A stretch of DNA of 64,000 bases from Pelotomaculum isophthalicicum JI (GTDB lineage: Bacteria > Bacillota > Desulfotomaculia > Desulfotomaculales > Pelotomaculaceae), in assembly GCF_029478095.1 (NCBI RefSeq), contig NZ_JAKOAV010000016.1:1-64000 (forward strand), in the 5' to 3' direction. Under the pieces are notes generated by a model. It had not been told where the DNA came from. It saw nothing but the letters and a program-made list of their open reading frames with translations, and ran no database searches. Positions 17,363 to 37,204 of the stretch are shown here, piece by piece (the stretch's first letter is position 1; the number at the start of each line of letters is the position of its first letter). Both the position numbers and the translations under genes were made by a program.

Positions 17363-17384
17363 ACTTTCATAGTTAGCGGTAACT

Positions 17385-17953: not shown

Positions 17954-18088
17954 ATGTAATTATTTGTGGAGTGCTTTTTCACTTCTTTTTTTCTAACCCG
18001 CATGTTATAAAAGGAAATGGTTGTAAATATTTGCTGACTAAAATAAAATAGATGTGTTAATACTCTAAATTAGGGAGGCATTTATAAC

Positions 18089-18931: not shown

Positions 18932-18982
18932 TATAAAATTTATTAATCACGCATACACTATTGCAAGAGGTGGTGATAGCCG

Positions 18983-19882: not shown

Positions 19883-19967
19883 ATGTTAGAAATTTCTACT
19901 TCATTAGATTTATTGACAAATATCCAGCTAATCAATATAATACTGCTGTAATAATATCAATATTAGA

Positions 19968-20206: not shown

Positions 20207-20238
20207 GCAATAATATGTTTTAGGGGGAAGTGTTAATA

Positions 20239-22161
20239 ATGAGTGCTGTCGATAATATTAAAATTGTTTTACCTGATGGAGCAGAGAGAGAATACCCGGC
20301 GGGAACAACTCTTTTTGAAATAGCGAAGAGCACTAGCCCCCGCTTGGCCAAAGAGGCTCTTATCGCCAGAGTGAACGGCGAGTTGATGGATTTGGCGAAT
20401 CCCATGATGGCTGATGCTTCCGTGGAGTTTCTTTCCTTTGAAGATGAGGCGGGGAAACGGGCTTACCGCCACAGTACCGCGCATGTTATGGCGCAAGCGG
20501 TGCAAAAGTTGTTTCCCGGCACAAAGTTCGCAATCGGGCCGGCTATCGCCGATGGCTATTATTATGACTTTGATACCAGTGAAACGTTTACACCGGATGA
20601 TTTGGGTAAAATAGAGAAAGAGATGGAAGCCATAATCAAGGCCGATTATCCGTTTGAGCGTTTTGAACTCCCCCGGACGCAAGCCCTGGATTTCTTTAAA
20701 GAAAACGGGCAGAACTACAAAGTTGAATTGATCGAGGACCTGCCGGCTGACACTGTACTCTCATTCTATAAACAGGGTGATTTTACCGATTTATGCGCGG
20801 GACCTCATGTTCCTTCCACCGGGAGACTTAAATCTGTAAAATTAATGAACGTGGCAGGCGCGTATTGGCGGGGCAATGAGAGAAACAAAATGCTTCAGCG
20901 TATTTACGGCACATCGTTTCCGAAAAAATCCATGCTTGATGAATATCTTTTCCGGATTGAAGAGGCCAAACGGCGCGATCACCGCAAGCTCGGAGCCGAA
21001 CTGGATTTGTTCAGCATCATGGATGAGGGGCCTGGTTTTCCTTTTTTCCATCCTAAGGGAATGATTCTGCGTAACGAACTGGAGAAATATTGGCGGGAAG
21101 AACATCAAAAGAGGGGCTACCAGGAAATACGCACACCGATTATTCTAAACAGGTCTTTGTGGGAGAATTCAGGACACTGGGATCACTACCGCGAGAATAT
21201 GTATTTCACGAAGATAGATGAAGGTGATTACGCGGTTAAGCCGATGAACTGTCCGGGCAGTATCCTGATCTACAAGAACAAGCTGCACAGTTACCGCGAA
21301 CTGCCGATCAGGCTTGCCGAGCTGGGCCTGGTGCACCGTCACGAGCTTTCCGGCGTGCTGCATGGTTTGATGCGGGTGCGGTGCTTTACTCAAGACGATG
21401 CCCATATTTTTATGCTCCCGGAGCAGATTAAAGAGGAAATTATCGGGGTTATCGACTTGGTAAACGATTTTTATAAAGTATTTGGTTTTAACTACTTTGT
21501 GGAACTGTCCACAAAACCTGAAAAAGCGATGGGATCGGATGAAATCTGGGATATGGCCACCGATGTGCTGCGGGACGCTCTTGACGCCAGGGGATTGAAA
21601 TATAAAGTCAATGAAGGGGACGGAGCGTTTTACGGCCCCAAGATCGATTTCCATCTGGAAGATTCGCTTGGCCGCACCTGGCAGTGCGGCACTATCCAGC
21701 TGGACTTTCAGATGCCGGAGAAATTTAACTTGAGCTACGTGGGTGAGGATGGTCAAAAACACCAGCCCGTGATGATCCATAGGGTGGTTTTCGGCAGTAT
21801 TGAAAGATTTATCGGCATTCTGACAGAACACTTTGCCGGGGCTTTTCCAACCTGGCTGGCGCCGGTCCAGGTGCGTGTGATTCCTATCACCGACCGGCAC
21901 GCTGAGTATGCCCGCAATGTCGTCAAGAGGTTGGAGGAAGCCGGCATCAGAGTTGAACTGGATACGCGTAATGAAAAAGTAAATTATAAAATACGTGAAG
22001 CGCAAACCCATAAGATACCTTATATGCTGATTACCGGGGACAAAGAAATAGAGCGGGACGGCGTTGCCGTGCGGCACCGCGCCAAGGGCGATCTCGGGGC
22101 CATGCCGCTCGGTGAGTTTGAAGGGAAACTGCTGGAAGAGATCAGGACCAAAGAACGTTAA
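20239..22161 (+). CDS. thrS: Threonyl-tRNA synthetase
   Basis: About 640 residues. Order: TGS domain (residues 1-60), SAD/editing domain with HSTAHVMAQAV and CAGPHV, class II catalytic core (MNCPGSI motif, RHELSG, FGSIERFIG motif 3) and the C-terminal anticodon-binding domain (PVQVRVIPITD). It charges tRNA-Thr in the cytoplasm. ATG 20239 is preferred over GTG 20230 because AGGGGG at 20222-20227 is at a proper distance. Expression is controlled by the upstream T-box, so it responds to threonine starvation. Confidence 0.97.
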   Translation: MSAVDNIKIVLPDGAEREYPAGTTLFEIAKSTSPRLAKEALIARVNGELMDLANPMMADASVEFLSFEDEAGKRAYRHSTAHVMAQAVQKLFPGTKFAIGPAIADGYYYDFDTSETFTPDDLGKIEKEMEAIIKADYPFERFELPRTQALDFFKENGQNYKVELIEDLPADTVLSFYKQGDFTDLCAGPHVPSTGRLKSVKLMNVAGAYWRGNERNKMLQRIYGTSFPKKSMLDEYLFRIEEAKRRDHRKLGAELDLFSIMDEGPGFPFFHPKGMILRNELEKYWREEHQKRGYQEIRTPIILNRSLWENSGHWDHYRENMYFTKIDEGDYAVKPMNCPGSILIYKNKLHSYRELPIRLAELGLVHRHELSGVLHGLMRVRCFTQDDAHIFMLPEQIKEEIIGVIDLVNDFYKVFGFNYFVELSTKPEKAMGSDEIWDMATDVLRDALDARGLKYKVNEGDGAFYGPKIDFHLEDSLGRTWQCGTIQLDFQMPEKFNLSYVGEDGQKHQPVMIHRVVFGSIERFIGILTEHFAGAFPTWLAPVQVRVIPITDRHAEYARNVVKRLEEAGIRVELDTRNEKVNYKIREAQTHKIPYMLITGDKEIERDGVAVRHRAKGDLGAMPLGEFEGKLLEEIRTKER

Positions 22162-22170
22162 TTAGACACG

Positions 22171-22200
22171 AAAACGCTCCGGTTTACCCGGAGCGTTTTT
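22171..22200 (+). terminator. Terminator of thrS
   Basis: The arms AACGCTCCGG and CCGGAGCGTT close on a short loop and are followed by T residues. It marks the left border of the defence island. Confidence 0.88.
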
Positions 22201-22318
22201 GTGTCTAATGATGTGGAAAAAAGATATTTACCGGTAGTAAAAGGATATTTTAACCTTGAAGTTGAATAAATTTTGGAGAAATATTAATGCCATTCCCAAA
22301 TAAATAAAGGTGTTAAGC

Positions 22319-22777
22319 ATGTCAGATAATTCCGGCTATACCATTAAAAAAGAGTTGGAACAAATCCGGTACCGCCGGCACCAACTGTTGATAATTTGCG
22401 GCGTTAATCGTACTAAAATTATCCAGGATATAACCAGAGAACTTGCTATTCCCCGTATAAACCTGAGTTTAAAATTAAGCGAAGAATTGCTGGAGGTGCC
22501 GGTTGCCCGGCGCAGCCGGAAAGTAAGCCAATTAGTAGATAAGTTAGTAAGCGAGAGTACAGGGGAAATCTTATGCTTTGAACATATCGAATTACTGTTC
22601 CATCCATTGTTGCAACAAGACCCTATGAGGATATTGGAAAATATCAGCCGCAACAAAATTATTCTTGTTTCCTGGAACGGTCATTATGCAAATGGCAGAT
22701 TAACCTATGCCGAGCCGGAACACCCGGAATATCGCGCGTATAACGAACTGGAAGCGAGCGTTTTTGCCATTGACTGA
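22319..22777 (+). CDS. brxF: BREX type 3 protein BrxF
   Basis: 152 residues. It opens the defence operon. The sequence fits BrxF, a small P-loop-like protein of BREX type 3: a central LLIICGVNRTKI where a Walker A would lie, a hydrophobic strand ending in EILCFEHIELLF, and the family-typical tail with NKIILVSWNG and LTYAEPEHPEYR. The Walker A is degenerate (no GKT/S), so nucleotide hydrolysis is doubtful. Its role in BREX is not known. ATG 22319 is used because AAAGGTG lies six bases before it. 17 bases separate it from brxC. Confidence 0.8.
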   Translation: MSDNSGYTIKKELEQIRYRRHQLLIICGVNRTKIIQDITRELAIPRINLSLKLSEELLEVPVARRSRKVSQLVDKLVSESTGEILCFEHIELLFHPLLQQDPMRILENISRNKIILVSWNGHYANGRLTYAEPEHPEYRAYNELEASVFAID

Positions 22778-22794
22778 GCGGAGGGATGAAAAGG

Positions 22795-25700
22795 ATGAAG
22801 TATAGTGATCTTATTCATTTTGAACCTATTGAATCAGTAGTACAGTTGCGGGAATCAAACTCAAAGGAATATGCCTTCCAGTTATTAGATACTTATGTCA
22901 TTTCAGAACGTATGGCGGAGTCCATCGATGAAATCATTATCGAACAGCTTCAATACGACCACCATGCTGATAATAAGGGGCTTTTGGTAGTCGGCAACTA
23001 CGGAACCGGAAAATCTCACCTGATGAGTGTTATAGCCACCATTGCCGAGCAAGAGGGAGTCAGTGAACGTATAACCGATAAACGGGTAGCGTCCAAAGCA
23101 AAGGAAATCGAAGGCAAATTTCAGGTGATCCGTACCGAGATTGGCGCTTCCATCATGTCCTTGCGGGATATCCTTTGCGGCTACATCGAGGACCACCTGG
23201 CTGAAATCGGTGTGGATTATCAATTCCCCCCGGCCAATCAGGTGCGTAACAATAAAGACGCCTTTATTGGAATGATGGCGGCCTTCCATGAAGTATATCC
23301 CGGCCATGGTTTACTGCTGGTGGTGGACGAACTGTTGGATTATTTACGGGCACGCAAAGAGCAGGAGATTATCCTGGATTTAGGCTTTTTGCGCGAGGTG
23401 GGCGAAATCTGCCGCACCACACGCTTCCGCTTCATTGCCGGTATACAGGAAATGTTATTTGACAACCCCAAATTTCAATTTGTAGCCGGGCAGTTGCGCC
23501 GGGTCCGGGAACGTTTCGAGCAAGTGCAAATCATACGGGAAGATATCGCCTATGTGGTATCCCAACGACTGTTAAAGAAAGATGATCGCCAAAAGGCTCT
23601 TATTCGTGAGCACCTGCAAAAGTTTTCCGCCCTTTATGAAAAATTGAATGAGCGCCTGGAAGAATATGTTTCTCTATTTCCCATCCACCCGGCTTATTTG
23701 TCTACCTTTGAAAAGGTTATGGTGGCGGAAAAACGTGTAATTCTTAAAACCATCAGTTATGAAATGAAAAAACTCCTGAACCGGGAAGTTCCCGGTGATC
23801 AACCTGGTTTAATATCCTATGACAGCTACTGGCCATATATTGAAAATGATCCCTCACTGAAAAGCAACCCCGATATCAGAGAAGTTATGAGCAAATCCAA
23901 AATATTACAGGACCGCATTCAAAATGCCTTTACCCGTCCGGTTTATAAACCAATGGCTTTGCGCATTGTCCGGGCACTGTCCGTGCACCGGTTAACCACC
24001 GGGGATATTAACGCCAGGCTGGGTGTTACCTCAGAAGAACTGCGGGATAACCTCTTTCTTTATGTGGCGTTGCCGGAGGAAGATTCAACATTTTTGCGCA
24101 CCACCATTGAAACAGTGTTAAAAGAGATTTTAAAAACCGTAAGCTGGCAGTTTATTTCCTTTAATGAAGCCAATGGCCAGTATTATTTGGATTTAGGCAA
24201 AGTAGAGGCCATTGACGATTTGATTGAGCAAAAGGCCGGGGGGCTAACAACAGAGCAATTGGATCGCTACTATTTTGAAGCGCTTGCCCTGGTGACCGAC
24301 AGCGCCAAAAATACCTACGTTACCAACTACCGCATCTGGCAGCATGAACTGCCCTGGTGGGAATGTAAGGTAACACGCCAGGGATACCTGTTCTTCGGCG
24401 CGCCCAATGAGCGTTCCACCGCCCAGCCGCCCCGGGATTTTTATATCTATATGCTGCAGCCTTTTGATCCGCCGAAGTTTAAAGACGAGGAGCGGGCAGA
24501 CGAAGTATTCTTTAAGTTAAAGCACAAAGACGAGATGTTCCTGCGGGCTCTTTCCCTCTATGCCGGCGCCAAGGAATTGAGCGCCGTCGCCGCTTCAGGA
24601 ACCAAGCATTTATATGAAGGGCGCGCCGGGGATAATTTAAAGCTGCTGACCAAGTGGCTGCGGGAAAACCTTTTGAGTGCTTTTGAAGTCACTTATAAAG
24701 GCATCACCAAAAAGGTGGTTGACTGGGTTAAAACTATGCCGCCCCAAGCCAGTGTAAGGGAAATTATTGATGCTGTGGCCGCCGCCTGCTTGTCATCCTG
24801 CTTTGAAGAAAAATACCCGGATTACCCCCATTTCAGCAAGTTGAATATGCCTTTAACCAGGGAAAATCTGCCCGGGTATGTGCAGGATGCTTTAAAAAGT
24901 ATTGCCGGAGCTAAAACCAAGAGCGGGACGGCCATTCTGGACGGACTGGTGCTGCTGGAAAATGAAAAGTTGGCTCCCCGCCGGTCCGGCTATGCCAGAT
25001 GGATTTTAGATAAACTGGCGGAAAAGGCGCATGGTCAGGTAGTAAACCAGTCGGAGTTCATAGAAACGGTCTACAGTTGTCAGGGAACAGAGGATATAAA
25101 GTTAACCACCGCCTTTAAATTGGAACCGGAACTGCTGGTGGTGTTGCTGGCAGCGCTGGTCTACAGCGGCGATATTGTGGTGACAGTATCAGGGATCACC
25201 TATGATGCCATGAAGATGGAGCAGTTAATCAAGCTGCCCTTAAGGGAACTTAAGGATTTCAGCCATATTAAAAAGCCCAGCGGGCTGCCGGTGCCCGCTT
25301 TACAGGCACTCTTTGACCTGTTTGGTATTTCCGACGCGCTGTTGCAACAAAATGCCCTGGCGAAGGGTATTGAAGAGTTGCATAAGTATGCCAACAACCG
25401 GTTAATCAATACTGTAAACATTTTGCAGGTGGTTCGCACAGGCATTCCCTGCTGGGACGGCGTTATTTTATCCGCCGCCGAACAGCGGCAGTATAAAGAG
25501 AAGCTGGAAGATCTAAAAGCCTTCCTTGAGGCAGTGCTGGTTTACAACACTCCTGCCAAATTACACAACTTTAAGTTTACCGTAGAACAAGTGACCGAAA
25601 AGCGAGAAGCGCTTAACTTAGTTAAACAGTTGGCAGAGTTGCAGCAGCGGGTGACACAAATCTCCAGTCAGGCCAACTATCTAGTTGCCGCCCAGCAGCA

Positions 25701-26472
25701 TTTACCCCTGGACCACCAGTGGCAGGAGGATGTGGAAGTAGCCCTTGGCGACTTGCTTCATGCCCTGAAAGGGGGGAAATCCTGCGAGGCGGAACTGAAG
25801 CAAATCCGGGTATTGAAGGAACAGTACCAGGAATTTTATTTGGTCATGCACAACAGAGCCAGGCTGAATGCCACTGAGGAGAATCAAAAAAATATTTTGC
25901 TGAATGATCCGGGGGTATCCGCTTTAAAACAACTGGCTACAATTGATTTACTGCCGGAAAACCAGTTAAGCCGGTTGTTAAACCGGGTTAATTCCCTGAA
26001 AACCTGCTGGAGCTTGACTAGAAAAGACCTGGAATATCATTCCATCTGCCCGCATTGCAAGTTCCGTCCCAAAGACGAGCAGCCCGGCGCGGTGAAAAAC
26101 CTGAACGGCCTGGCGGACAAGCTGCAAGGACTTCTGGACGATTGGACCGGGATGCTGCTGGATTACTTCAACGACCCGGAAGTAAAGGAAAATATCACTT
26201 TATTGAAACCGGAGCAGCAAGAGTTAGTCAACGCGCTGCAGGTGCAAAAGGAATTAACACTGCCTATTGATATTAAACTGGTTCAAGCCATTAAGGAACT
26301 TTTACAGGGTATTGAGCGGATAGAAATTACCATGGACGATTTAACGGAGATGGCGGGCAACGGCAGTCCCCTGACCGTCGAAGAGGTAAGGCAGCGTTTA
26401 GAGAAGTTATTGAAGGATCGCATAGGCTCCCAAGCTGCCAACCGTGTACGCATTATGCTCGGTCATAAGTAA
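22795..26472 (+). CDS. brxC: BREX P-loop ATPase BrxC (DUF6079-type)
   Basis: About 1225 residues. Walker A GNYGTGKS at about residues 67-74 and Walker B LLLVVDELLDYL near 175-186 mark an AAA-like ATPase; a CPHC pair lies near residue 1085. BrxC/PglY proteins are large ATPases essential for BREX phage restriction and, in studied systems, for methylation. ATG 22795 is chosen over ATG 22786: GGAGGG at 22780-22785 is nine bases from the former and touches the latter. It lies 17 bases after brxF and 16 bases before the methyltransferase, so the three form one operon. Confidence 0.85.
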   Translation: MKYSDLIHFEPIESVVQLRESNSKEYAFQLLDTYVISERMAESIDEIIIEQLQYDHHADNKGLLVVGNYGTGKSHLMSVIATIAEQEGVSERITDKRVASKAKEIEGKFQVIRTEIGASIMSLRDILCGYIEDHLAEIGVDYQFPPANQVRNNKDAFIGMMAAFHEVYPGHGLLLVVDELLDYLRARKEQEIILDLGFLREVGEICRTTRFRFIAGIQEMLFDNPKFQFVAGQLRRVRERFEQVQIIREDIAYVVSQRLLKKDDRQKALIREHLQKFSALYEKLNERLEEYVSLFPIHPAYLSTFEKVMVAEKRVILKTISYEMKKLLNREVPGDQPGLISYDSYWPYIENDPSLKSNPDIREVMSKSKILQDRIQNAFTRPVYKPMALRIVRALSVHRLTTGDINARLGVTSEELRDNLFLYVALPEEDSTFLRTTIETVLKEILKTVSWQFISFNEANGQYYLDLGKVEAIDDLIEQKAGGLTTEQLDRYYFEALALVTDSAKNTYVTNYRIWQHELPWWECKVTRQGYLFFGAPNERSTAQPPRDFYIYMLQPFDPPKFKDEERADEVFFKLKHKDEMFLRALSLYAGAKELSAVAASGTKHLYEGRAGDNLKLLTKWLRENLLSAFEVTYKGITKKVVDWVKTMPPQASVREIIDAVAAACLSSCFEEKYPDYPHFSKLNMPLTRENLPGYVQDALKSIAGAKTKSGTAILDGLVLLENEKLAPRRSGYARWILDKLAEKAHGQVVNQSEFIETVYSCQGTEDIKLTTAFKLEPELLVVLLAALVYSGDIVVTVSGITYDAMKMEQLIKLPLRELKDFSHIKKPSGLPVPALQALFDLFGISDALLQQNALAKGIEELHKYANNRLINTVNILQVVRTGIPCWDGVILSAAEQRQYKEKLEDLKAFLEAVLVYNTPAKLHNFKFTVEQVTEKREALNLVKQLAELQQRVTQISSQANYLVAAQQHLPLDHQWQEDVEVALGDLLHALKGGKSCEAELKQIRVLKEQYQEFYLVMHNRARLNATEENQKNILLNDPGVSALKQLATIDLLPENQLSRLLNRVNSLKTCWSLTRKDLEYHSICPHCKFRPKDEQPGAVKNLNGLADKLQGLLDDWTGMLLDYFNDPEVKENITLLKPEQQELVNALQVQKELTLPIDIKLVQAIKELLQGIERIEITMDDLTEMAGNGSPLTVEEVRQRLEKLLKDRIGSQAANRVRIMLGHK

Positions 26473-26488
26473 TGGAGGGGAGAAGAAC

Positions 26489-29296
26489 TTGGTTTTCAAG
26501 GATACGAAACAAATAACGATGTTAGATCATGAGCAAGACACCGAAGATCAACCGGTAACCTGCCTGGGGATGACCTTTGCCGATGACGAGGCCCGCCGGG
26601 CGTATTTTACGGAGGAACTGCGCAGAAGACTGCCTGAATTAAGACAAATGGAAGGGTTTCCGATTGGTGAGGATGAAGACATCCTCGCCCTTTCGGACCC
26701 GCCTTATTATACTGCTTGCCCGAATCCGTTCATACCGGATTTTATTAAATATTGGAAAGAGGAAAAGAGAAAGTTATATGGTGAAGACCAAGAGGAGTAT
26801 CACAGGGAACCTTTTGCCGCGGATGTATCGGAAGGGAAGAATGACCCGATTTATAACGCGCATAGTTACCATACCAAGGTGCCTCATAAGGCGATTATGC
26901 GGTACATCCTGCATTACACAGAGCCGGGAGACGTGGTCTTTGACGGGTTTTGCGGAACGGGGATGACGGGGGTAGCGGCCCAACTGTGTGGAGACCAAAG
27001 CGTAATTGCTTCACTTGGCTATAAGTTGACCGAAGATGGGTACATCCTGGATGAAAACAAGCAGACGGTCTCTCGGTTTGGATGCCGGCACCCTGTTCTG
27101 AACGACCTTTCGCCCGCCGCAACTTTGATCGCCGCAGGCTATAACCTGACAGCCGATGCAAAAGGGTTCGCCCGGCATGCCAAGATGCTTTTGGACAAGT
27201 TCAACAGTGAATACGGGTGGATGTATGAAACGCGGGACCCCAAAACTGGCGCAGTTTGTCCGGTTGACTTCACAGTTTGGACCGAAGTATTCAACTGTCC
27301 TCATTGCTCCGGGGAATTGGAATTCTGGAGTCTGGCCTATGACGAGGCGTCAGGGAAGTTTGAAGACCGACTCACCTGTCCTCACTGTTCGGCGGATATT
27401 TCTAAACGTGACCTCGTTAGACTCACAACCACTTACTACGACAATACGGTCGGGTCAATCCGGACGCGGCAGGTCTTGCGTCCGGTCGATATCCGATACC
27501 AGCACATGGGAGTCAAGAAGAGCAAAAAACCTGATCAAGATGATAATGCCGTCCTGGAGAGAGTTGAAAAACTGATGGAGGATATCTATTACCCCACTGA
27601 ATTGATGATGTTTGTTCCGGAGGGGGAAGAATGGGGCGATGACTTTCGACCAACAATCAGCCGTGTTCACGATTTTCATTTGCCGCGCCAGCTCGTCGCC
27701 TTCTCTCTGCTATGGCAAATGACGGATGACCTCCCCAGTGAGGAAATGAAGCGGCTCTGGCGGTTTACATTACAGAGCGTCCTTGTGAGCTTCACCCGCC
27801 GAAATAGGTTTTTAAAGAATGCCTATTCTCAGGTTAATCGTGCACTGAGCGGTACGTTGTATATGGGCTCAACAGTCAGCGAGCCAAGCCCCACCTATGT
27901 ATTGACCGGCAAGATTAAAAGATTTGGCAACGCTATTCCAAAGGGCGGCTCTCCGGCAGTCATAACCACGCAATCTCTCGCCTCAGTGTTGATTCCGGAT
28001 AACTGCGTCGATTACGTGTTCATCGATCCGCCCTTCGGCGACAACTTACCCTATGCCGAGTTGAATTTCCTGTGGGAGGCGTGGCTTCGGGTATTCACCA
28101 ATGCTGGTCAGGATGCGATTGTCAGTAGGAAGTGGAAAAAAGACTTGGCCGTTTACACGAACATGATGACGTCCTGTCTGAAACAGGTTTATCGCATCCT
28201 CAAGCCGGGCCGGTGGGTTACGGTGGAATTTCACAATTCAAAGAACGCCGTATGGACTGCGATACAAGAAGCACTGGGACGCGCCGGCTTCATCATTGCT
28301 GACGTAAGTGTCCTCGACAAGGGGATGAGGACCAAGAAGCAGTTGCATGCCAGAGCGGTTGACAAAGACCTGGTCATATCGGCCTACAAACCGAACGGCG
28401 GGCTCGAGCAAAGATTCCAGCTCATAGCCGGAACTGAAGAAGGGGTCTGGGATTTTGTCCGGACTCACCTGCGCCGGCTCCCCGTCTTTATTGTCAAAGA
28501 CGGGACAGGACAAGTGATAGCGGAAAGACAGCAGGTCTTATTATTCGACCGCATGGTTGCTTTTCATGTTCAACGTGGAGTTACCGTTCCCCTGTCTGCA
28601 GGCGAATTTTATCAGGGGCTGGCCCAGCGCTTTCCCGAGCGTGACGGCATGTACTTCCTGATGGACCAGGTGGTTGAATACGAGCGCCTGCGTGTGGCCT
28701 CCCGTGAGATAATACAACCCGAATTCTTTGTCTCCGATGAATCATCGGCCATCCAATGGCTCAAAGAGCAGCTTGCCAGAAAACCACAGACTTTCAGGGA
28801 GCTTCAGCCGCAGTTTATGCGTGAAACGCAAGGTGGTTGGCATAAATACGAGAAACCTCTGGAGCTTTCGGTATTGCTCGAGCAAAACTTCCTTCGCTAC
28901 GACGGCAGTGATGAATTACCCAGCCAGATTCACAGCTACCTGTCTACGAATTTCAAGGACCTCAGAAAATTGGCCAAGGACGATGAGACCCTTCGTAGTA
29001 GAGGGAAGGATCGCTGGTATGTTCCGGACCCCAATAAACAGGCTGACTTGGAGAAGTTGCGCGAGAAATCCCTGCTGCGCGAATTCGCTTCATATATTGA
29101 AGAAATAAAGAAAAGCAAGAGAAAATTAAAGCTGTTTCGTACCGAGGCCATCCGGGCCGGCTTTAGAAAGGCCTGGGGAGATAATGATTATCAAACAATT
29201 GTCGAGATTGGCCGGCGTTTGCCGGAAAGCGTCCTGCAAGAGGACGATAAATTGTTGATGTACTACGACAACGCGCAAATCCGGCTGGGGATGTAA
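26489..29296 (+). CDS. pglXI: BREX type 3 DNA methyltransferase PglXI (COG1743-like)
   Basis: About 935 residues. SAM-binding motif I is DGFCGTGMTG (residues about 152-161); the catalytic DPPF is near 513-516, followed by GDNLPYAEL. An extra DPPYYTACPNPF occurs at about 70-81, and two CPHC pairs near 270-305 form a zinc ribbon, as in COG1743 DNA methylases. In BREX this enzyme marks host DNA, usually as N6-methyladenine at a non-palindromic site. The start is TTG 26489 with GGAGGGG eight bases upstream; an ATG inside brxC is unlikely. Base composition is more GC-rich than the rest of the island. Confidence 0.83.
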   Translation: MVFKDTKQITMLDHEQDTEDQPVTCLGMTFADDEARRAYFTEELRRRLPELRQMEGFPIGEDEDILALSDPPYYTACPNPFIPDFIKYWKEEKRKLYGEDQEEYHREPFAADVSEGKNDPIYNAHSYHTKVPHKAIMRYILHYTEPGDVVFDGFCGTGMTGVAAQLCGDQSVIASLGYKLTEDGYILDENKQTVSRFGCRHPVLNDLSPAATLIAAGYNLTADAKGFARHAKMLLDKFNSEYGWMYETRDPKTGAVCPVDFTVWTEVFNCPHCSGELEFWSLAYDEASGKFEDRLTCPHCSADISKRDLVRLTTTYYDNTVGSIRTRQVLRPVDIRYQHMGVKKSKKPDQDDNAVLERVEKLMEDIYYPTELMMFVPEGEEWGDDFRPTISRVHDFHLPRQLVAFSLLWQMTDDLPSEEMKRLWRFTLQSVLVSFTRRNRFLKNAYSQVNRALSGTLYMGSTVSEPSPTYVLTGKIKRFGNAIPKGGSPAVITTQSLASVLIPDNCVDYVFIDPPFGDNLPYAELNFLWEAWLRVFTNAGQDAIVSRKWKKDLAVYTNMMTSCLKQVYRILKPGRWVTVEFHNSKNAVWTAIQEALGRAGFIIADVSVLDKGMRTKKQLHARAVDKDLVISAYKPNGGLEQRFQLIAGTEEGVWDFVRTHLRRLPVFIVKDGTGQVIAERQQVLLFDRMVAFHVQRGVTVPLSAGEFYQGLAQRFPERDGMYFLMDQVVEYERLRVASREIIQPEFFVSDESSAIQWLKEQLARKPQTFRELQPQFMRETQGGWHKYEKPLELSVLLEQNFLRYDGSDELPSQIHSYLSTNFKDLRKLAKDDETLRSRGKDRWYVPDPNKQADLEKLREKSLLREFASYIEEIKKSKRKLKLFRTEAIRAGFRKAWGDNDYQTIVEIGRRLPESVLQEDDKLLMYYDNAQIRLGM

Positions 29297-29321
29297 TGTG
29301 AGTAATCTCGTGGTTTAGTAC

Positions 29322-29351
29322 ATAATTATGCTATAATAATAGCATAATTAT
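29322..29351 (+). promoter_or_regulatory. Palindromic operator overlapping a -10 box
   Basis: A perfect 13-base inverted repeat, ATAATTATGCTAT and ATAGCATAATTAT, with a four-base spacer. TATAAT (29332-29337) lies inside it. The antitoxin start is 18 bases downstream with GAGGTG between. This is the expected layout of an autorepressed toxin-antitoxin promoter: a dimer bound here would block the -10 box. Confidence 0.7.
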
Positions 29352-29369
29352 TGACGAGGTGTTGATATT

Positions 29370-29795
29370 ATGCCACAAATTAGACCAATTACCGATCTGA
29401 GAAATACCAATGAAATTTCAGAAATATGCCATAAACCAGGAGAACCGGTTTTTATTACCAAAAACGGATATGGTGATTTGGTTGTGATGAGTATAGAAAC
29501 CTATGAGCGTCAGTTTGCTCTTGTTGAGGTTAACAAAAAGCTCACTGATGCCGGGAAAGAGCTTGCGCAGGGAGTTCCTTTAACACAAATTATACTTAAA
29601 GAATCACAATACCGCTTTTTGACTGAAGTTGCCGGATTGAAGGGTATAAGTATATCTGAGGTAATCCGGCAATTGGTCGACGAAAAGCAGTGTGAGATTT
29701 CATATGCCCAGGCTGAGGGAGCCGTGGAAATGAGTAAAGGTGCTGTTGCTGGAGATGGTAGTAACGTTCACCATGACGAGGTTTTATGTGAATAA
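29370..29795 (+). CDS. Phd/YefM-type antitoxin with extra C-terminal part
   Basis: 141 residues. The first 50 (ITDLRN, EPVFITKNGYGDLVVMS, ETYE) are a Phd/YefM DNA-binding fold. Residues about 80-110 (YRFLTEVAGLKGISISEVIRQL) resemble a ribbon-helix-helix segment. Phd-family antitoxins bind their toxin and repress their own operon; the palindrome over the promoter fits. No Doc, RelE or PIN toxin follows; the next genes are a truncated HEPN and an MNT protein, not the usual Phd partners. It lies between pglXI and pglZ, in the BREX operon. Confidence 0.7.
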   Translation: MPQIRPITDLRNTNEISEICHKPGEPVFITKNGYGDLVVMSIETYERQFALVEVNKKLTDAGKELAQGVPLTQIILKESQYRFLTEVAGLKGISISEVIRQLVDEKQCEISYAQAEGAVEMSKGAVAGDGSNVHHDEVLCE

Positions 29796-29803
29796 GATAG
29801 TAT

Positions 29804-30067
29804 TTGCAGCCTTCTTGCGTTATATACGCAAGGTATAAAGGCGTTTGGGCATGGGATTTGGTGTCATTAGCTGGTAGTGCCGGCTTGCTTGAAAAATGTA
29901 CAAAAGAGCTGAGGGACTTGTTACGCCGTCTTTCTCTATATTATATTGAAACTAGGTATCCCGATAAACGTGCCGTTCTGGAAGCCAAATGCACTAAAGA
30001 GCATACGAAAGAAATTCTGGAACGCTCAAAGGGGGCTGTGAAATGGTTAAAAAACATGTTGAAGTAG
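29804..30067 (+). pseudogene. Truncated HEPN-domain protein (MNT-associated)
   Basis: The last 60 residues (LLEKCTKELRDLLRRLSLYYIETRYPDKRAV, then an E/K-rich helix; read in parts) match the C-terminal half of HEPN proteins that pair with MNT nucleotidyltransferases: the YIxTRYPD element is typical. The N-terminal half, which should carry the first helices, is missing, and only a short TTG frame without a good ribosome site precedes it. A hairpin CTTGCGT/ACGCAAG sits at 29814-29832 in its place. I therefore regard it as a truncated relic. It overlaps the MNT gene by 25 bases. Confidence 0.6.
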
Positions 30068-30366
30068 TTGTGGGTGAATTTATAAAGGCTTTAAAAAGTA
30101 GGAACATTCGTGTTGAAAAAGCCATCTTGTTTGGGTCTTATGCAAAAGGGAGCGCGGGTAAAGATAGTGATATTGATATTGCTGTAATTTCTCCGGACTT
30201 TGGCCAAGACTATGTGGAGGAAGCAGTTATGCTTAAAGAAATCAGTGAAGATATTGATTTAGATATTTCTCCAAGACCCTATTCTCTGGAAGAATATAAA
30301 AATATCAAGAAAGGACAATTCCTTTATGACGAGATTATTTTAAAGGGTAAACTGATTGTAAGCTAA
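30043..30366 (+). CDS. MNT-type nucleotidyltransferase (antitoxin-like)
   Basis: 107 residues, complete. The pol-beta nucleotidyltransferase motif is FGSYAKGSAG followed by DSDIDIAV: a GS(x)9-10DxD arrangement. In HEPN/MNT toxin-antitoxin pairs the MNT protein inactivates the HEPN ribonuclease, in studied cases by adding AMP to it. GGGGG lies about eight bases before the ATG. Its HEPN partner here is truncated, so either it acts alone or the pair is dead. Confidence 0.8.
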   Translation: MVKKHVEVVVGEFIKALKSRNIRVEKAILFGSYAKGSAGKDSDIDIAVISPDFGQDYVEEAVMLKEISEDIDLDISPRPYSLEEYKNIKKGQFLYDEIILKGKLIVS

Positions 30367-30444
30367 GGATATCATTTTTAGTAATCATTACAACGATAAT
30401 GTGCAAATCCGTTCAGGTATGAAGAGAAGGACAGGTGACCCCTT

Positions 30445-32409
30445 TTGAGTACGTGGCGCGATCAGGTGCTGAGGGATTTTCAGGAACCGGTGCCGCCACT
30501 TACGCTGGTGGCGGATCCGGATCATTTGCTGTTGGATGAAGTTCTACTGTCGTCCTTTAAGGACAGCCAAGTGGAATTCGTCCAATACGGTGACCCGGTG
30601 GCCTTTCGTTACCTGTTTGAATTCAGTTATCGTAAAGCGCTGGAAGAGCGAACCTTAAGGTTGCTGGTGCGGGTAAATGATGTTACTCTGGAGCAAATGC
30701 CTTACGATTTGCTGCAAATGGGGCGAAAACTAACCTACCGGGTGCAAACCATATTTCCAAAGCTGTCACCCCAAGTGGTGAAGCAATTGGCCTCCCAGGA
30801 CTTAGATGCCTTGTATGCCGTCCGCGGACAGTATCAAGGCGCTGCTTCTTATGGCGAAACCTGTGATTTTATCTTGCGCAGGGTTTTTAAAGTGGCCTAT
30901 GACATGATCGATAATGAAACGGAACTGGTCAAGTACTTGCTTTCTAAACATTACCGTCAGAGACTATACCCGGAGGTAATCGAGTCATATCTCATCGAAC
31001 AATTACAGATGCAAAAGGGGTTAAATAAGCTGCCGTTGGCAGAGTTGGTAAAATCCCCGTCCTTTTTTTATAGCTATCTGCAAAACCAGTGGGTTGTGTA
31101 TTTGCAAATCCTGCAAGAAAAACCGTTGGTATTAATGGACGATAGCCTGCCAAAGGGCATCTATGGCAAAGAAAAACCCCATCCCTTTGACGATGAAGAT
31201 GTTTACCGTTTATTAGATAACCTGTTTATTGAAGGGTACTTGAAACCGGTGAAGGGCTTTAACAGTAAGCGGTTACCTCAATGGACCCATGTCGGGCTGG
31301 TGATTGATCCTGCCAGCGACCACAAAAATCGTCTTAAAGGACTACTGGTAAACTTAAAGGAGAAGCTTCAGGCAATCGGAAATTACCGGGACTGGTTGAA
31401 TGTCGTTCCGTTGTACGGTGAAATAAAAGATTTAATTTTATCCATGAATTTTACCCAAAATGAAACTGTTCTTAGCGAAGTAAAAGCCGTCGAGGCCGGG
31501 ATGGACGCCCAATTTGAGCTATGGATGCTCCGTAACTATGGAGGGTTGCTAAACCTTCCCTATTTGCCGAAACCGGTGATGCTGCACCAGGTGTCCCATT
31601 ATTTAGCCGCTAAACATTATGCAAAAGTTGCCCTGGTGGTCTTGGATGGTATGAGTTATGTCCAGTGGGCGCAAATACGGAAGCATTTACAGGCGAAAAA
31701 CTTTGTTTTTGATGAGTTGAGTGTTTTCGCCTGGATTCCCACCATTACTTCTATATCCAGACAAGCCCTTTTTACCGGAGAAATGCCCGTATATTTCTCC
31801 CATACCTTGGGAACCACCAGGAAAGAAGAAGCAACATGGAAACTTTATTGGGAGAACCATGATGTGTTCAAGGCTTATACCGGCTATGAAAAAAGATTAG
31901 GTCAAAGAGAAGGGGCTTATCGATCCCCTGATAGTTTACAAAAACCTTCACTAAAAGTGCTTGGCCTGGTGATTGATACCATTGACAATCTGGTTCATAC
32001 GGCCCTGCAAGGGCACAGAGGGATGTACGCTGAGCTCAAGTTATGGCTTGAAAAAGGGTATCTGGCAGGACTTTTGGCAGATTTAATGAATAAAGGCTTC
32101 GAGGTTTACTTGACTTCCGATCATGGTAATAAGGAAAGCCGGGGCATTGGCCGTGTCTCGGAGGGTGTTCTGGCGGAAACACGGGGGGAACGGGTTAGAA
32201 TCTATAAAGATAAGATGTTGCGCGATAAGGCGGCTGCTGCTTACTCTTCATTGGCCTGGACCGGGTCCGGCTTGCCGGAGGACGTGTATGTATTGCTGGC
32301 CAAAAGCGGAGAAGCTTTTATTCAAAAAGGTGAACATGTGGTCAGTCACGGGGGGATCAGCCTGGAGGAAGTAGTGGTGCCTTTTATACACATTACAGGC
32401 AAACAATAA
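30445..32409 (+). CDS. pglZ: BREX phosphatase-like protein PglZ
   Basis: 654 residues. The PglZ domain belongs to the alkaline phosphatase superfamily. Visible pieces are VALVVLDGMSYVQW (about 395) with the metal-binding Asp, TITSISRQALFTGEMP (about 430), and YLTSDHGNKES (about 555) with the DHG metal site. PglZ is a core BREX protein needed for defence and methylation. The start is TTG 30445, with AGGTGA six bases upstream. It is separated from the MNT gene by 78 bases; 16 bases follow before brxA. Confidence 0.87.
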   Translation: MSTWRDQVLRDFQEPVPPLTLVADPDHLLLDEVLLSSFKDSQVEFVQYGDPVAFRYLFEFSYRKALEERTLRLLVRVNDVTLEQMPYDLLQMGRKLTYRVQTIFPKLSPQVVKQLASQDLDALYAVRGQYQGAASYGETCDFILRRVFKVAYDMIDNETELVKYLLSKHYRQRLYPEVIESYLIEQLQMQKGLNKLPLAELVKSPSFFYSYLQNQWVVYLQILQEKPLVLMDDSLPKGIYGKEKPHPFDDEDVYRLLDNLFIEGYLKPVKGFNSKRLPQWTHVGLVIDPASDHKNRLKGLLVNLKEKLQAIGNYRDWLNVVPLYGEIKDLILSMNFTQNETVLSEVKAVEAGMDAQFELWMLRNYGGLLNLPYLPKPVMLHQVSHYLAAKHYAKVALVVLDGMSYVQWAQIRKHLQAKNFVFDELSVFAWIPTITSISRQALFTGEMPVYFSHTLGTTRKEEATWKLYWENHDVFKAYTGYEKRLGQREGAYRSPDSLQKPSLKVLGLVIDTIDNLVHTALQGHRGMYAELKLWLEKGYLAGLLADLMNKGFEVYLTSDHGNKESRGIGRVSEGVLAETRGERVRIYKDKMLRDKAAAAYSSLAWTGSGLPEDVYVLLAKSGEAFIQKGEHVVSHGGISLEEVVVPFIHITGKQ

Positions 32410-32425
32410 TTTTTAGAGGTTTAAA

Positions 32426-33130
32426 ATGGCAAAACCGGTGGGGTTTGATCAAAAAATAAAGTTGCGGCATCTGGACTATATTGCCAGAGAAGCGAGCAGT
32501 TTGGATCGTAAAAATGTACATGAAAAACTAGATGAATTTCTAAATGCAGATATTCGTGGTGCTAAATCCAGAAAAAACGCCGTTACGGTATTAATGAAAA
32601 TCTGGTATTTGACGCCCGGTGAATTAAAGAGTTTACGCCAAAGGGCCTTAGAATTGCTGCCATCCTTATCGTTTCATGATCGTCTTGTTTTTCATTGGGG
32701 TATGACCTTACTGGCCTATCCCTTTTTTAAAGATGTGGTCAATGAATTGGGCACTCTATTCAGATTGCAAAATGAGGTGCCCAGCCGGCAAATAGGCCGT
32801 AAGGTGAAGAGTCTCTATGGGGACAGGCGTAGGGTGGAGGTAGCTACCACAGCGGTATTGATGAGTATCAAATCTTGGGGGCTTATTGAGAGAAGTAAAA
32901 GCAATATTTATACCCTGCCGAAAAAATACGAAATAACCAATGCGGCATTAAAGCTATGGCTGGCTGAGGTGGTCCTGCGGGTTTCGGATTGTCAATACAT
33001 GCCGCTGGAGATGATCCCGGCGGCACAGTTCGTTTTTCCTTTTCAATTTAAAATCAACATTAGAGAATTTGAACATAGCAATTTCATTATCAATCGACAG
33101 GGTTTGGATATGCAGTTGGTTGGTCTTTAG
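32426..33130 (+). CDS. brxA: BREX protein BrxA (DUF1819-like)
   Basis: 234 residues, a soluble helical protein. Size, position directly after pglZ, and pieces such as KNAVTVLMKIWYLTP and RLVFHWGMTLLAYPFFKDVV match BrxA of BREX type 3. Studied BrxA is a small DNA-binding protein. AGAGG lies about ten bases before the ATG. The call depends partly on context. Confidence 0.72.
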   Translation: MAKPVGFDQKIKLRHLDYIAREASSLDRKNVHEKLDEFLNADIRGAKSRKNAVTVLMKIWYLTPGELKSLRQRALELLPSLSFHDRLVFHWGMTLLAYPFFKDVVNELGTLFRLQNEVPSRQIGRKVKSLYGDRRRVEVATTAVLMSIKSWGLIERSKSNIYTLPKKYEITNAALKLWLAEVVLRVSDCQYMPLEMIPAAQFVFPFQFKINIREFEHSNFIINRQGLDMQLVGL

Positions 33131-33162
33131 AATATGTTAATTTTCCAATTTAGGAGAATAAT

Positions 33163-36102
33163 ATGGATTTTAAAGAGTTGCTTGAGAAGTATCAGACATT
33201 ACTGATTGAGAACAATAGCTTGAAAGAAGAAATAATGAGCTTGAAGGCTCAATTGGGTATTATAGAGCCACAGGTTGTTCCTGGTGAAATTCCCAATTAT
33301 ATATCAGAACCAGAAATATTTAATAATGAATTTGCAGGTAAAACTTTGCAATTAAACGTAAACAGTAAGTCAGACAGCGTAGAAAAAATCAAGTTATTCA
33401 TGTCACTCTTTAAAGGACGGGACGATGTTTACGCTAAAAGATGGGAAAACAAAAAGAAGGGGACATCCGGGTATTCACCGGTCTGTTTGCATGAATGGAA
33501 ATCTGAATTATGTGCAAAACCAAAGGGAAAATGTGCAGGTTGCGCCTTTAAGGAATATGCTGTTTTAAATGAAATGGTTATTGATGATCATTTACGAGGG
33601 CGTGACAATTTCGTTGCGGGAATATATCCCTTGTGCCTAGATGAGACATGCTACTTTTTAGCTATTGATTTTGATGATGGAGAGTGGCAAAAAGATATTT
33701 CAGTGATCAGACAAGTGTGTACGGAGTTTAATATTCCTATAGCTGTTGAGCGCTCGCGTTCAGGCAAAGGAGCTCATGCGTGGTTTTTCTTTAAAAGCCC
33801 GATATCTGCCGCTCTGGCAAGGAGATTTGGAAGTGCGCTACTTACCTTCTCCATGAGTAAAAGGCATGAGATAACATTTAAATCCTATGACAGGTTTTTT
33901 CCCAATCAGGACACAATGCCAAAGGGCGGTTTGGGAAATCTGATTGCGCTTCCTTTGCAAAAGGCAGCAAGAAAAGCTAATAATAGTGAGTTTATCGATG
34001 AAAATTTTCAACCGTATAATGACCAGTGGGCGTTTTTAGCTACAATTCATAAACTCTCCGAAAATGATGTTGAAATGCTTTCAACAAAATTGTGCCACGG
34101 GAACGAACTTGGAGTATTGAAAAAAGACGAAGAAGAAAACCAAAAGCCGTGGGAAACAAGCAAAGTCAAATTGCTGAAAAACGATTTTCCACAAGATGTT
34201 GAAATTGTAAAAGCAAATATGCTATTTATCCCGAAGGCAGGCATTTCTCAAAAGGCGTTAAACCACTTGAAACGTTTAGCGGCTTTCAAAAATCCGGAGT
34301 TTTATAGAGCTCAAGCGATGCGCATGCCGACTACTAAAATACCCAGAATTATTTCTTGCTCTGAAGAAACAGCAGAATATCTGTGTCTGCCAAGAGGATG
34401 TGAAGCAGACTTGAAAGCTATATTTGAAGAACTAGGAATGGCTGTTAACTACATTGACAAGACGAATTGCGGCAAAAAAATTGATGTTGAATTCAACGGT
34501 AGCTTGAGAGATGAACAACCTCTGGCATTCGATAAATTGCTCAGACATGATATCGGAGTACTTTGCGGAACTACAGCTTTCGGGAAAACGGTTGTGGCAA
34601 TTAAATTGATTGCCGAAAGAAAAGTTAACACACTTATTCTGGTTGATAAAGTCAATTTGGTTCCACAATGGAAAGAAAGATTGATGAAATTTCTGACGAT
34701 AAATGAGACTTTGCCGGATGAAGATATCAATGAGGGAAAAAAGAGAGGAAGAAAAAAAGCTAATAGTATTATCGGACAAATAGGAGCAGGAAAGGACAGC
34801 TTAAGTGGAGTAATTGATATAGCCATAATGCAATCGTTAAATAGAATGGGTGAAGTCAAGGAATATGTGAAAAATTATGGTATGATTATTGTTGATGAAT
34901 GTCATCATGTTTCAGCTTTTAGCTTTGAAAAGATACTTAAAAGCACAAACGCAAAATATGTTTATGGATTAACCGCAACACCTACCAGAAAAGATGGACA
35001 TCATCCGATCATATTCATGCAATGTGGTTCCATACGATACAGGGATGACGCGAAAAAACAGGCGGAAAAAAGACCTTTTGAGCATTATATTATACCAAGA
35101 TTTACATCTCTAAGGGTTCCGTTGAATAAAGATGAAAGTGACGTTTCAATTCAGGAGTTATATTCCGAAATAGTAATTAATGAGATGCGAAATCAGCTAA
35201 TTGTTGATGATGTGGTTAAAAGCCATGAAGACGGCAGGAACTGTATTGTTTTAACAGAAAGAACCGCTCACGTTAAATTACTTGCCAAAAAAATAAATAA
35301 CAGAATTCCTGATGTGATATCTCTTACGGGTGGTATGGGAACGAAGGAAACCAGAGAAAAAATGAAACGAATAATTAATACACCTGCAGATAAACAGCTA
35401 ACTCTAGTGGCTACAGGTAAATATATAGGAGAGGGTTTTGATGAACCGCGTCTTGATACGTTATTCTTAGCAATGCCTATATCGTGGAAAGGGACTTTAC
35501 AGCAATATGCAGGCAGGCTTCACAGGCTGTTTAAAAATAAAAATGAGGTACAAATATATGATTATGTGGATATCCATGTAAGGATGCTGGAAAAGATGTA
35601 TAATAAAAGGCTTACCGGATATGCTTCAATTGGTTATAAAGCAAAGGGCGAAAGTTTTGCAGCAGAGTCAATAAACATTATTTTTGATAAAAGCAACTTT
35701 TTACCTGTATATACAAATGATATTGTGAATGCAGCAAGAGAAATATTGATTGTAAGTCCGTTTATTACCAAGAAGCGTACTTTGCAAATGCTGCAACACC
35801 TAAGGGTTGTATTGCAAAATAAAGTGAGAGTAATCGTGGTGACTAGGCCGGTTGAAGATTTCAAGGAAAAGAATATGAACGCTTTGCAAGGTACTTTGAA
35901 ATTATTAGAAGATGCTGGAGTAAGTGTGGTTTTTAGATCAAATATTCACCAAAAATTTGCAGTTATAGACCAAAGGATCGTATGGTATGGTAGTATAAAT
36001 CTATTGAGCTTTGGCAGTGCAGAAGAAAGCATCATGCGGCTTGAAAGCCCCAATATTGCATATGAACTTATAAAAAGTATAGGAGAGAGGCAGGTATCAT
36101 AA
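33163..36102 (+). CDS. TOTE-type primase-helicase-phospholipase D fusion
   Basis: 979 residues. A coiled coil (about 1-35) is followed by a primase domain of the archaeo-eukaryotic type (about 85-330): CLHEWKSELC/CAGCAF zinc cysteines, FLAIDFDDGEW with the metal-binding acids, SRSGKGAHAWFFF. An SF2 helicase follows (about 440-830): GTTAFGKT, VDECHH, LTATPTRKDG, AGRLHR. The end (about 880-979) is a single HKD nuclease-like unit, HQKFAVID then YGSINLL, which would work as a dimer. Such proteins are known from TOTE conflict systems. It lies 32 bases after brxA, same strand, but is clearly more AT-rich than pglXI, suggesting separate origin. Confidence 0.85.
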   Translation: MDFKELLEKYQTLLIENNSLKEEIMSLKAQLGIIEPQVVPGEIPNYISEPEIFNNEFAGKTLQLNVNSKSDSVEKIKLFMSLFKGRDDVYAKRWENKKKGTSGYSPVCLHEWKSELCAKPKGKCAGCAFKEYAVLNEMVIDDHLRGRDNFVAGIYPLCLDETCYFLAIDFDDGEWQKDISVIRQVCTEFNIPIAVERSRSGKGAHAWFFFKSPISAALARRFGSALLTFSMSKRHEITFKSYDRFFPNQDTMPKGGLGNLIALPLQKAARKANNSEFIDENFQPYNDQWAFLATIHKLSENDVEMLSTKLCHGNELGVLKKDEEENQKPWETSKVKLLKNDFPQDVEIVKANMLFIPKAGISQKALNHLKRLAAFKNPEFYRAQAMRMPTTKIPRIISCSEETAEYLCLPRGCEADLKAIFEELGMAVNYIDKTNCGKKIDVEFNGSLRDEQPLAFDKLLRHDIGVLCGTTAFGKTVVAIKLIAERKVNTLILVDKVNLVPQWKERLMKFLTINETLPDEDINEGKKRGRKKANSIIGQIGAGKDSLSGVIDIAIMQSLNRMGEVKEYVKNYGMIIVDECHHVSAFSFEKILKSTNAKYVYGLTATPTRKDGHHPIIFMQCGSIRYRDDAKKQAEKRPFEHYIIPRFTSLRVPLNKDESDVSIQELYSEIVINEMRNQLIVDDVVKSHEDGRNCIVLTERTAHVKLLAKKINNRIPDVISLTGGMGTKETREKMKRIINTPADKQLTLVATGKYIGEGFDEPRLDTLFLAMPISWKGTLQQYAGRLHRLFKNKNEVQIYDYVDIHVRMLEKMYNKRLTGYASIGYKAKGESFAAESINIIFDKSNFLPVYTNDIVNAAREILIVSPFITKKRTLQMLQHLRVVLQNKVRVIVVTRPVEDFKEKNMNALQGTLKLLEDAGVSVVFRSNIHQKFAVIDQRIVWYGSINLLSFGSAEESIMRLESPNIAYELIKSIGERQVS

Positions 36103-36133
36103 CTATGGGCATAAAGTTGATTTTATGCAAATA

Positions 36134-36160
36134 AAAAAAGGCCTCTAGGCCTTGATTTTT
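36134..36160 (-). terminator. Terminator of tRNA-Ala, usable in both directions
   Basis: The palindrome AAGGCC TCTA GGCCTT (36138-36153) has an A tract on the left, giving a U run for the minus strand, and TTTTT on the right, which could also end the defence operon. Confidence 0.7.
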
Positions 36161-36161
36161 C

Positions 36162-36237
36162 TGGTGGAGATAAGCGGGATCGAACCGCTGACCTCCTGAA
36201 TGCCATTCAGGCGCTCTCCCAGCTGAGCTATATCCCC
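36162..36237 (-). tRNA. tRNA-Ala(GGC)
   Basis: On the minus strand the acceptor GGGGATA pairs near its complement TATCTCC, the anticodon stem CCTGA/TCAGG encloses loop ATGGCAT (anticodon GGC), and CCA is encoded. It borders the defence island; I looked for a copy of its 3' end at the other border and saw none. Confidence 0.93.
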
Positions 36238-36320
36238 ACGTTATTATTGATTTAGTTTTTTAATGTGCCGCCCGCACTTTTTTAGTCTATCATTTTTTTT
36301 ACTTATGGTCAAGCTTCTTT

Positions 36321-37067
36321 TTATAGTTTTTTCATGAGAAAGGTGCCATATCCCAAGTATTTTTTATATATTTGGATTAACTGCATATATTTTTGCATTA
36401 CATTATTAACTTCCCGGCTTGATCCTGTTCCTCGTGATACTACTTGGTAAGGATCCGGATACAGTATGTTCTTAATATTATCTAATAAACCCGGAAAATT
36501 ATTACGCTGTACTTTGACGGGTGCAAATCCTGTATTTTGAAATAATATCAACCATTCTTCAAAAGAAGGTATATGAGGCAAATTGCAGGCTGCTTGAATT
36601 TGTTCCCTCGCTATCTTGGGCAGAGATTTGCTTGCGCACATCTCTACGCAAATTAATATCCCATTTTTTTTTAATATTCTATTGCACTCTCGCAGTATAG
36701 AAATTGCCGGTAAAAATATTAATACCGACTCAACTAAGATCAAATCAATAACTTTATTTCGGAATGGTGTGTCTCCAGCATCACAAAGCACATACTGCAC
36801 TTGCACACCTTCTTGTGACGCCCTATACGTAGCCTTTTGCAACATTTCCTCAGAGTTGTCCAGGGCAAAAACAAATGCGCCTGAATTTTTTGCTATATGG
36901 CAAGCGGTTCGGCCGGTCCCACATCCGATATCAAGAACAATATCTTCATCAGACAGATCAATTTGTCTAAGCACATTGAGAGTGTGGAAGAATCCCCCCG
37001 GATGTAGGCTGCCTTTGCCCAGGGAAGTAACTGCGTCAAGATAAGTTGTCATAGTATCGTACCACAC
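36321..37067 (-). CDS. Class I SAM-dependent methyltransferase
   Basis: 248 residues. The SAM-binding motif VLDIGCGTGRTACHIA (about 44-59) is followed by ALDNSEEML and the VESVLIFLP strand, as in UbiE/type-11 methyltransferases. The substrate is unknown. The GTG start at 37067 gives a full-length frame but has only a weak ribosome site; ATG 37052 is an alternative. It stands alone between tRNA-Ala and the glycosyltransferase genes. Confidence 0.75.
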   Translation of the reverse strand: MWYDTMTTYLDAVTSLGKGSLHPGGFFHTLNVLRQIDLSDEDIVLDIGCGTGRTACHIAKNSGAFVFALDNSEEMLQKATYRASQEGVQVQYVLCDAGDTPFRNKVIDLILVESVLIFLPAISILRECNRILKKNGILICVEMCASKSLPKIAREQIQAACNLPHIPSFEEWLILFQNTGFAPVKVQRNNFPGLLDNIKNILYPDPYQVVSRGTGSSREVNNVMQKYMQLIQIYKKYLGYGTFLMKKL

Positions 37068-37204
37068 TTTACTTTTGAATAGTTTGAAAATACCTTTGTG
37101 AATCTATATATACTATGTGAATGAGTATCCGGGGGTTCCATGATAACAACTAGTCTGCTGAATAAGTCAATACCGATGACGATATTTCAAAATTCTTGAT
37201 AAAA

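Follow-up and report, generated by a model that had tools for sequence, protein, structure and literature searches.

The window analysed here, a stretch of DNA of 64,000 nucleotides, carries a BREX operon that is followed by a gene for a 979-aa chain, the product of the forward-strand ORF 33163-36102 with an ATG start (ORF translation). The operon was recognised in an earlier note on the same DNA, and Pfam, NCBIfam and PADLOC assign it to BREX type 3, with BrxF, BrxC/DUF6079, PglXI, PglZ-3 and BrxA (Table 1). BrxHII helicase was found in this operon neither between pglXI and pglZ nor after brxA (helicases below 80 bits would escape). The site where most BREX-3 operons have brxHII is occupied by a Phd-like/HEPN/MNT module. 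A HEPN-MNT module lies at the same place in a relative (L182:12552-13728), set between duplicated fragments of the end of pglXI and the start of pglZ; the HEPN frame is shorter in the window than in L182. In the middle of pglXI (window 26994-28365) DNA similarity to the nearest operon is missing, and PglXI is 58% identical versus 91% for BrxC and 83% for PglZ, which looks like an exchange of the specificity part.

Operon and gene together form an island between thrS and a tRNA-Ala, the latter lying after the gene on the opposite strand. In a genome of the same genus (G484), window 9319-22161 and 36162-37172 are both preserved as flanks at 82-84% DNA identity, but the island is absent and 2.8 kb of other genes lie between thrS and tRNA-Ala instead. 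In the 64%-complete assembly of a same-species genome (G483), the BREX contig breaks off in pglXI and the one with the flank at window 36371; the gene was not found in this assembly, which is therefore uninformative.

Table 1. Features of the island and of the gene behind brxA (window positions), and the protein encoded downstream of the gene in three relatives
Feature	Position	Strand	Evidence
Island: BREX-3 operon and primase-helicase-nuclease gene, between thrS and tRNA-Ala	22162..36161	.	comparison with G484
brxF	22310..22777	+	NCBIfam NF033453 BREX_3_BrxF, 133 bits
brxC (DUF6079)	22786..26472	+	Pfam PF19557, 1397 bits; PADLOC BrxC
pglXI methyltransferase	26444..29296	+	PADLOC PglXI, 1272 bits
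Module between pglXI and pglZ: Phd-like antitoxin, truncated HEPN-like frame, minimal nucleotidyltransferase	29370..30366 (within 29302-30388)	+	Pfam
pglZ (type 3)	30445..32409	+	NCBIfam NF033449, 658 bits
brxA, last gene of the conserved BREX-3 cassette	32426..33130	+	PADLOC BrxA, 182 bits
Junction with ribosome-binding site AGGAG (33152-33156)	33131..33162	+	sequence
Prim-Pol / SF2 helicase / HKD nuclease gene	33163..36102	+	ORF, Pfam, conservation, AlphaFold2 model
N-terminal helix, coiled-coil-like, aa 3-30	33169..33252	+	AlphaFold2 model
Prim-Pol (AEP) domain, aa 74-305	33382..34077	+	PF22548, conserved residues, fold match
XPB/UvsW-like helicase, aa 343-830	34189..35652	+	Pfam, conserved residues, fold matches
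Single HKD (PLD) nuclease domain, aa 852-972	35716..36078	+	PF13091, residues, fold matches
HKD motif	35947-35970	+	sequence, HQKFAVID, aa 929-936
GSIN motif	35989-36000	+	sequence, aa 943-946
Terminator-like hairpin and T run, after the gene	36138..36160	+	consensus scan
567-571-aa protein without Pfam match	L083:12956-14671, L090:12983-14698, L097:12996-14699		

The combination of an AEP primase, an SF2 helicase and a phospholipase D (PLD)-like unit in one chain, read in the earlier note from the letters, was confirmed by Pfam, residue conservation, an AlphaFold2 model and fold matches. Pfam places AEP-TOTE (PF22548) at aa 74-305 (336 bits, cut-off 27), ResIII/DEAD at aa 447-609, Helicase_C at aa 682-789 and PLDc_2 (PF13091) at aa 852-972 (44.9 bits, cut-off 27). 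Helicase motif I (GKT) corresponds to aa 474-476 and DECHH to aa 578-582. HxKxxxxD and GSxN each occur in a single copy, which is the signature of single-HKD nucleases.

The AlphaFold2 model of the protein was built on a 50-row alignment (mean pLDDT 83.7) and the PLD part was modelled alone (pLDDT 85.3). The Prim-Pol domain matches a CRISPR-associated Prim-Pol from Marinitoga (7nqf_B, Z 25.0, rmsd 2.4, 204 residues aligned, 30% identity). For the helicase, the best fold match is XPB, XPB-Bax1 and NER complexes included (6p4w_A, Z 25.4; 6p4f_C, Z 24.2, rmsd 4.0); T4 UvsW (1rif) matches with Z 21.0. The match to XPB and T4 UvsW starts at about residue 343 and thus includes the part ahead of the motor, a segment known in XPB as the damage-recognition domain. 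The PLD part resembles Nuc (1byr, Z 15.5), SauUSI (7clg_A, 15.4), NucT (15.3) and BfiI (13.2), in a fold whose non-nuclease members score well too; another SauUSI chain (7clg_B) matches the helicase part with Z 17.4.

Loss of catalytic residues, which the earlier note had named as evidence against its reading, was checked on the alignment: all are intact in this protein and conserved. Residues D169, D171, S200, H205 and D243 of the primase and K475, D578, E579, Q781, R785 and R788 of the helicase are invariant (50/50 rows), and the primase cysteines 108, 117, 124 and 127 are kept in 46-47 of the 50 rows. D169/D171 correspond to the catalytic DxD and S200/H205 to the conserved His motif, with D243 as the probable third acidic catalytic residue. 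The HKD domain is present in 39 of the 50 rows, with H, K and D all kept in 33 of these; one of the 39 has Y for H and five are degenerate, with the triad partly or wholly gone. Across this alignment the chain thus has a fixed primase-helicase core, to which the nuclease is an optional addition that is intact in the window protein.

The junction was then found to separate two histories. As described earlier, the gene is co-directional with brxA (end at 33130) at a distance of 32 bases, and AGGAG stands 6 bases upstream of its ATG. It is also AT-richer than the BREX methyltransferase gene, as had been claimed: its GC is 37.1% (GC3 32.8%) versus 50.6% (58.6%) for PglXI. Values for the other BREX genes are 47.7/55.5 (BrxC), 46.2/50.9 (PglZ), 42.9/47.1 (BrxF) and 42.3/44.4 (BrxA). 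DNA homology of the cassette to the operons of G479, G482 and G442 stops at 33126-33128, the stop codon of brxA, and that of the gene to its closest relatives runs from about 14 bases before the ATG to near the stop; these two limits show that units of separate inheritance have been joined at this point. The nearest kin of the cassette belong to the same family and the same order, and those of the gene are scattered over phyla. Separate acquisition, as proposed earlier, is thus supported by the GC contrast, the differing nearest kin and a junction that falls between the brxA stop and the ribosome-binding site of the gene. In the sequences compared, cassette and gene are each conserved independently and come together only here. 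A terminator scan gave 5 sites in the region versus 3.6 expected, so the hairpin behind the gene is weak evidence; the promoter scan gave 21 consensus matches versus 13.0 expected in an AT-rich stretch, which speaks neither for nor against a promoter of the gene's own.

Association with BREX was examined from both sides. BREX-3 genes were present in none of 66 loci of relatives outside this genome (fetched flanks; loci of 3.8-22.9 kb with very unequal flank lengths), and in one of them (L067) a BREX-1-like pglZ lies 7.3 kb away. On the BREX side, the 57 fetched stretches and the window were counted, 24 incomplete loci were dropped and 34 complete operons were retained, the window included; beyond the window, 40 listed BREX-3 places had been fetched, those left out being mostly weak, partial or second copies. 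The primase-helicase-nuclease gene was present in none of the other 33. Some species may occur in both collections. The closest operons by BrxC identity (G479 91%, G482 88%, G442 83%) end at brxA and have unrelated genes behind it. In the phylum sample, the gene and BREX-3 co-occur in 7 of 398 genomes versus 4.0 expected (p 0.09, or 0.17 without the genome of the window), which is not convincing. In the same sample, matches to both share a contig only in the genome of the window and in G086, where they are about 308 kb apart. A DNA search with brxA plus the gene gave no plasmid record covering 80% (0/37 matching records). Phage records matched as well, all 1520 of them at below 80% coverage.

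A functional tie of the gene to BREX is therefore not supported: absence of a BREX link in relatives, named in the earlier note as part of the result that would refute its reading, is what was observed (0/66 relatives' loci, 0/33 other BREX-3 operons), and the recurrent presence with BREX-3 genes expected of a BREX core component was not seen in either collection. The BREX setting of the three-part chain is a single case. In many other bacteria the gene occurs by itself, as a mobile unit, so that its pairing with this operon looks like a one-off addition and not an established team.

Within the order, 11 of 113 genomes match the gene (the class set is the same 113 genomes), and in the phylum sample 34 of 398 do. 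Scanning of genome contigs gave 39 loci; in about 22 a single open frame spans the available match, the others being split, truncated or at contig ends. Nearest relatives (79-82%) come from Clostridiales UBA4821, Anaerovirgula, Anaerosolibacter and Geosporobacter, and close ones (73-74%) from Ignavibacteria and Desulfuromonadales. In a protein tree with many open forks, the gene falls among clostridial, ignavibacterial, bacteroidotal and desulfobacterial copies; its nearest neighbour is from a Clostridiales MAG (82%) and not from its own order. Neighbours of the relatives match defence models (AbiE, Fic, Schlafen AlbA_2, pAgo, DpdE). At loci L064-L102, 278 PADLOC families (families, not genes) were matched by 119 of 216 near ORFs and 163 by 114 of 186 far ORFs of the same loci, a weak defence-gene enrichment.

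Taken together, we favour, at a little better than even odds (about 0.55), a self-contained and horizontally mobile DNA-attacking enzyme, appended 3' of a five-gene, helicase-less BREX-3 cassette as an accessory effector and not as part of the BREX core. The domains, the catalytic residues, the unique junction and the separate histories are the observed part of this explanation. The defence-type neighbours of the relatives speak for it; their weak enrichment, the triad losses and the H-to-Y change among the 39 HKD domains count against it. By this reading, two chains would pair by way of the N-terminal helix and the HKD domain and share a single active site, the arrangement of single-HKD nucleases. 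On invading DNA, the Prim-Pol/Cys-rich part and the part resembling the XPB damage-recognition domain may bind to a free end or to a replication or recombination structure. Powered by ATP, the helicase could then translocate and carry the dimeric nuclease along the DNA to the cut, by analogy with SauUSI, and the Prim-Pol might prime or extend on the exposed strand, or sense primer-template ends. Read-through from the operon probably leads to co-expression with BREX.

The strongest rival, which we nevertheless hold to be unlikely, is a mobile-element helicase-primase that serves replication, repair or target handling of transposons or integrative elements, the window copy being a passenger beside BREX. 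It owes this rank to transposon contexts. A second full copy in the same genome (contig C38, L154:4755-13834), of DUF1653-AEP-helicase-PLD architecture with DUF1653 and not the helix at its N-terminus, lies within a Tn7-like element between tnsA and tnsB-tnsC-tniQ/tnsD, and its end overlaps tnsB by 13 bases. The relatives with a DUF1653-like head (L174 and L175) gave no match to the Tns proteins of C38. Three plasmid relatives without PLD were inspected: one adjoins TniQ and an integrase, another a recombinase and a DUF4158 gene, and the third three tandem tyrosine recombinases; since nuclease-less relatives travel with integrases, TniQ and a transposase-type gene, a mobile-element function also fits. 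In the part of PMC8211822 available, non-CRISPR relatives are described as typically residing in mobile or transposable elements, mostly with a helicase domain, and many of the copies found here are broken or truncated. However, no transposase or integrase stands beside the window copy among the ORFs scanned, a PLD nuclease is odd for a replication helper, and most PLD-bearing relatives are without a shared surrounding element.

Less probable again is that the protein stands in for BrxHII, adding a helicase and a second nuclease, and is a working BREX part here. An SNF2/BrxHII-type helicase, missing from the window operon, is present in 23 of the 34 complete BREX-3 operons, 21 times between pglXI and pglZ and twice after brxA; no helicase was found in the other 11 (helicases below 80 bits would escape). 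The partly available PMC12839542 gives BrxHII in 77% of type-3 taxa, with a presumed DNA-unwinding role. The one good argument comes from L104 and L105 (BrxC 72-73%), which keep the SNF2 helicase right after brxA, in the same slot as the window gene. Against this, the closest operons G479, G482 and G442 have neither helicase, by which a regular replacement of BrxHII by the gene was rejected, and the complete G442 genome is without a full-length SNF2 homologue (best 40 bits); this clade thus seems to do without. Seven further helicase-less operons are also without the gene, XPB/UvsW-type and RapA-type helicases differ, and the helicase of another BREX-like operon in the same genome, on contig C11, shares 56% identity with its L105 counterpart. 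That a BREX-3 system which has lost or lacks BrxHII took up the chain after brxA as a restriction arm, unwinding, priming and cutting by one protein, is slightly more doubtful still. A role in DNA repair, with the protein as a nuclease-fused equivalent of archaeal XPB-Bax1 that would open damaged DNA, incise it and refill it with a Prim-Pol able to fill gaps, would suit the XPB and NER fold matches but is very improbable, its patchy presence, frequent decay and scatter over phyla being unlike a housekeeping gene.

The favoured reading, an accessory DNA-attacking effector, can be set beside described systems. Prim-Pol/helicase proteins are known as CAPP_A type 3 ('CAPP-Helicase'), typically in mobile elements when outside CRISPR loci (PMC8211822, available part). 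The order, Prim-Pol then helicase, and the Prim-Pol fold match are shared with this type, whereas the window protein adds a C-terminal HKD nuclease; the term 'phospholipase' is absent from the main text of that paper. Unlike in CAPP cas1/cas2 operons, none of the ORFs scanned at 16098-42786 was assigned to cas by PADLOC, and the NCBIfam model PrimPol_Msp scores 99.7 bits, below its cut-off of 200. The AEP domain is far above the cut-off for AEP-TOTE, the family of proteins of TOTE conflict systems (term taken from the part of PMC12458937 available), but the TPR, OB/cold-shock and TBP genes of those systems were not found by Pfam among the operon and flanking genes scanned. SauUSI, an ATP-driven translocase with an SF2 motor and a PLD-type nuclease in one chain (PMC7913695, available part), is the precedent for the helicase-nuclease pair and matches both parts of the fold; the window protein differs by its C-terminal nuclease and added Prim-Pol. 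Pfam detected in it no counterpart of the SauUSI target-recognition domain for methylated sites, a task that other parts of the chain could serve. With BREX auxiliary nuclease effectors it shares a nuclease fused to an SF2 helicase at the edge of the BREX core; the available part of PMC12839542 places HKD nucleases chiefly in type-1 BrxL and type-2 BR helicases, and its main text is devoid of the terms 'AEP' and 'TOTE'. In the library searched, no paper describing the three-part chain or its BREX link was found. The primase-helicase pair, PLD-helicase chains and accessory nucleases near BREX are already known, and the combination is a variant of these.

Within the widespread Prim-Pol/helicase family, one branch is thus armed with a nuclease; its members move about singly and are able to settle behind a defence operon. 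Nature offers two comparisons: related BREX-3 cassettes with nothing of the kind, an SNF2 helicase or this gene after brxA, and nuclease-armed versus nuclease-less members of one family. The case is also a warning that operon adjacency in a single genome is not partnership.

Several minor observations concern the slot and the other loci. Behind brxA, L107, L119, L182, L183, L104 and L105 carry differing genes (SNF2 helicase, ADDB_N-like and, by eye, OLD-like ATPase, Schlafen-like, AAA plus S8 protease), which resembles an accessory slot. In the genome of the window, gene fragments on contig C7 (L155:2-10996) match aa 125-214 and 754-830; a BREX-1-like brxC-pglX-pglZ set precedes them by about 1.5 kb, and a BrnT-like/CopG-like pair (names by eye) adjoins them. 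The C11 operon (L167:2-12983) reads brxC-pglX-OLD-like ATPase-pglZ-BrxHII-like helicase, PglZ being assigned by Pfam and the rest by similarity or eye, and C15 (L168:8123-19139) holds, by eye, a DUF499-centred BREX-like set. An all-against-all comparison of neighbours, by which a recurrent operon partner was sought, gave small groups only. In three of the closest relatives, a 567-571-aa protein without Pfam match is encoded about 70-90 bases downstream of the gene (Table 1); it has a distant homologue in L177 and is a possible partner.
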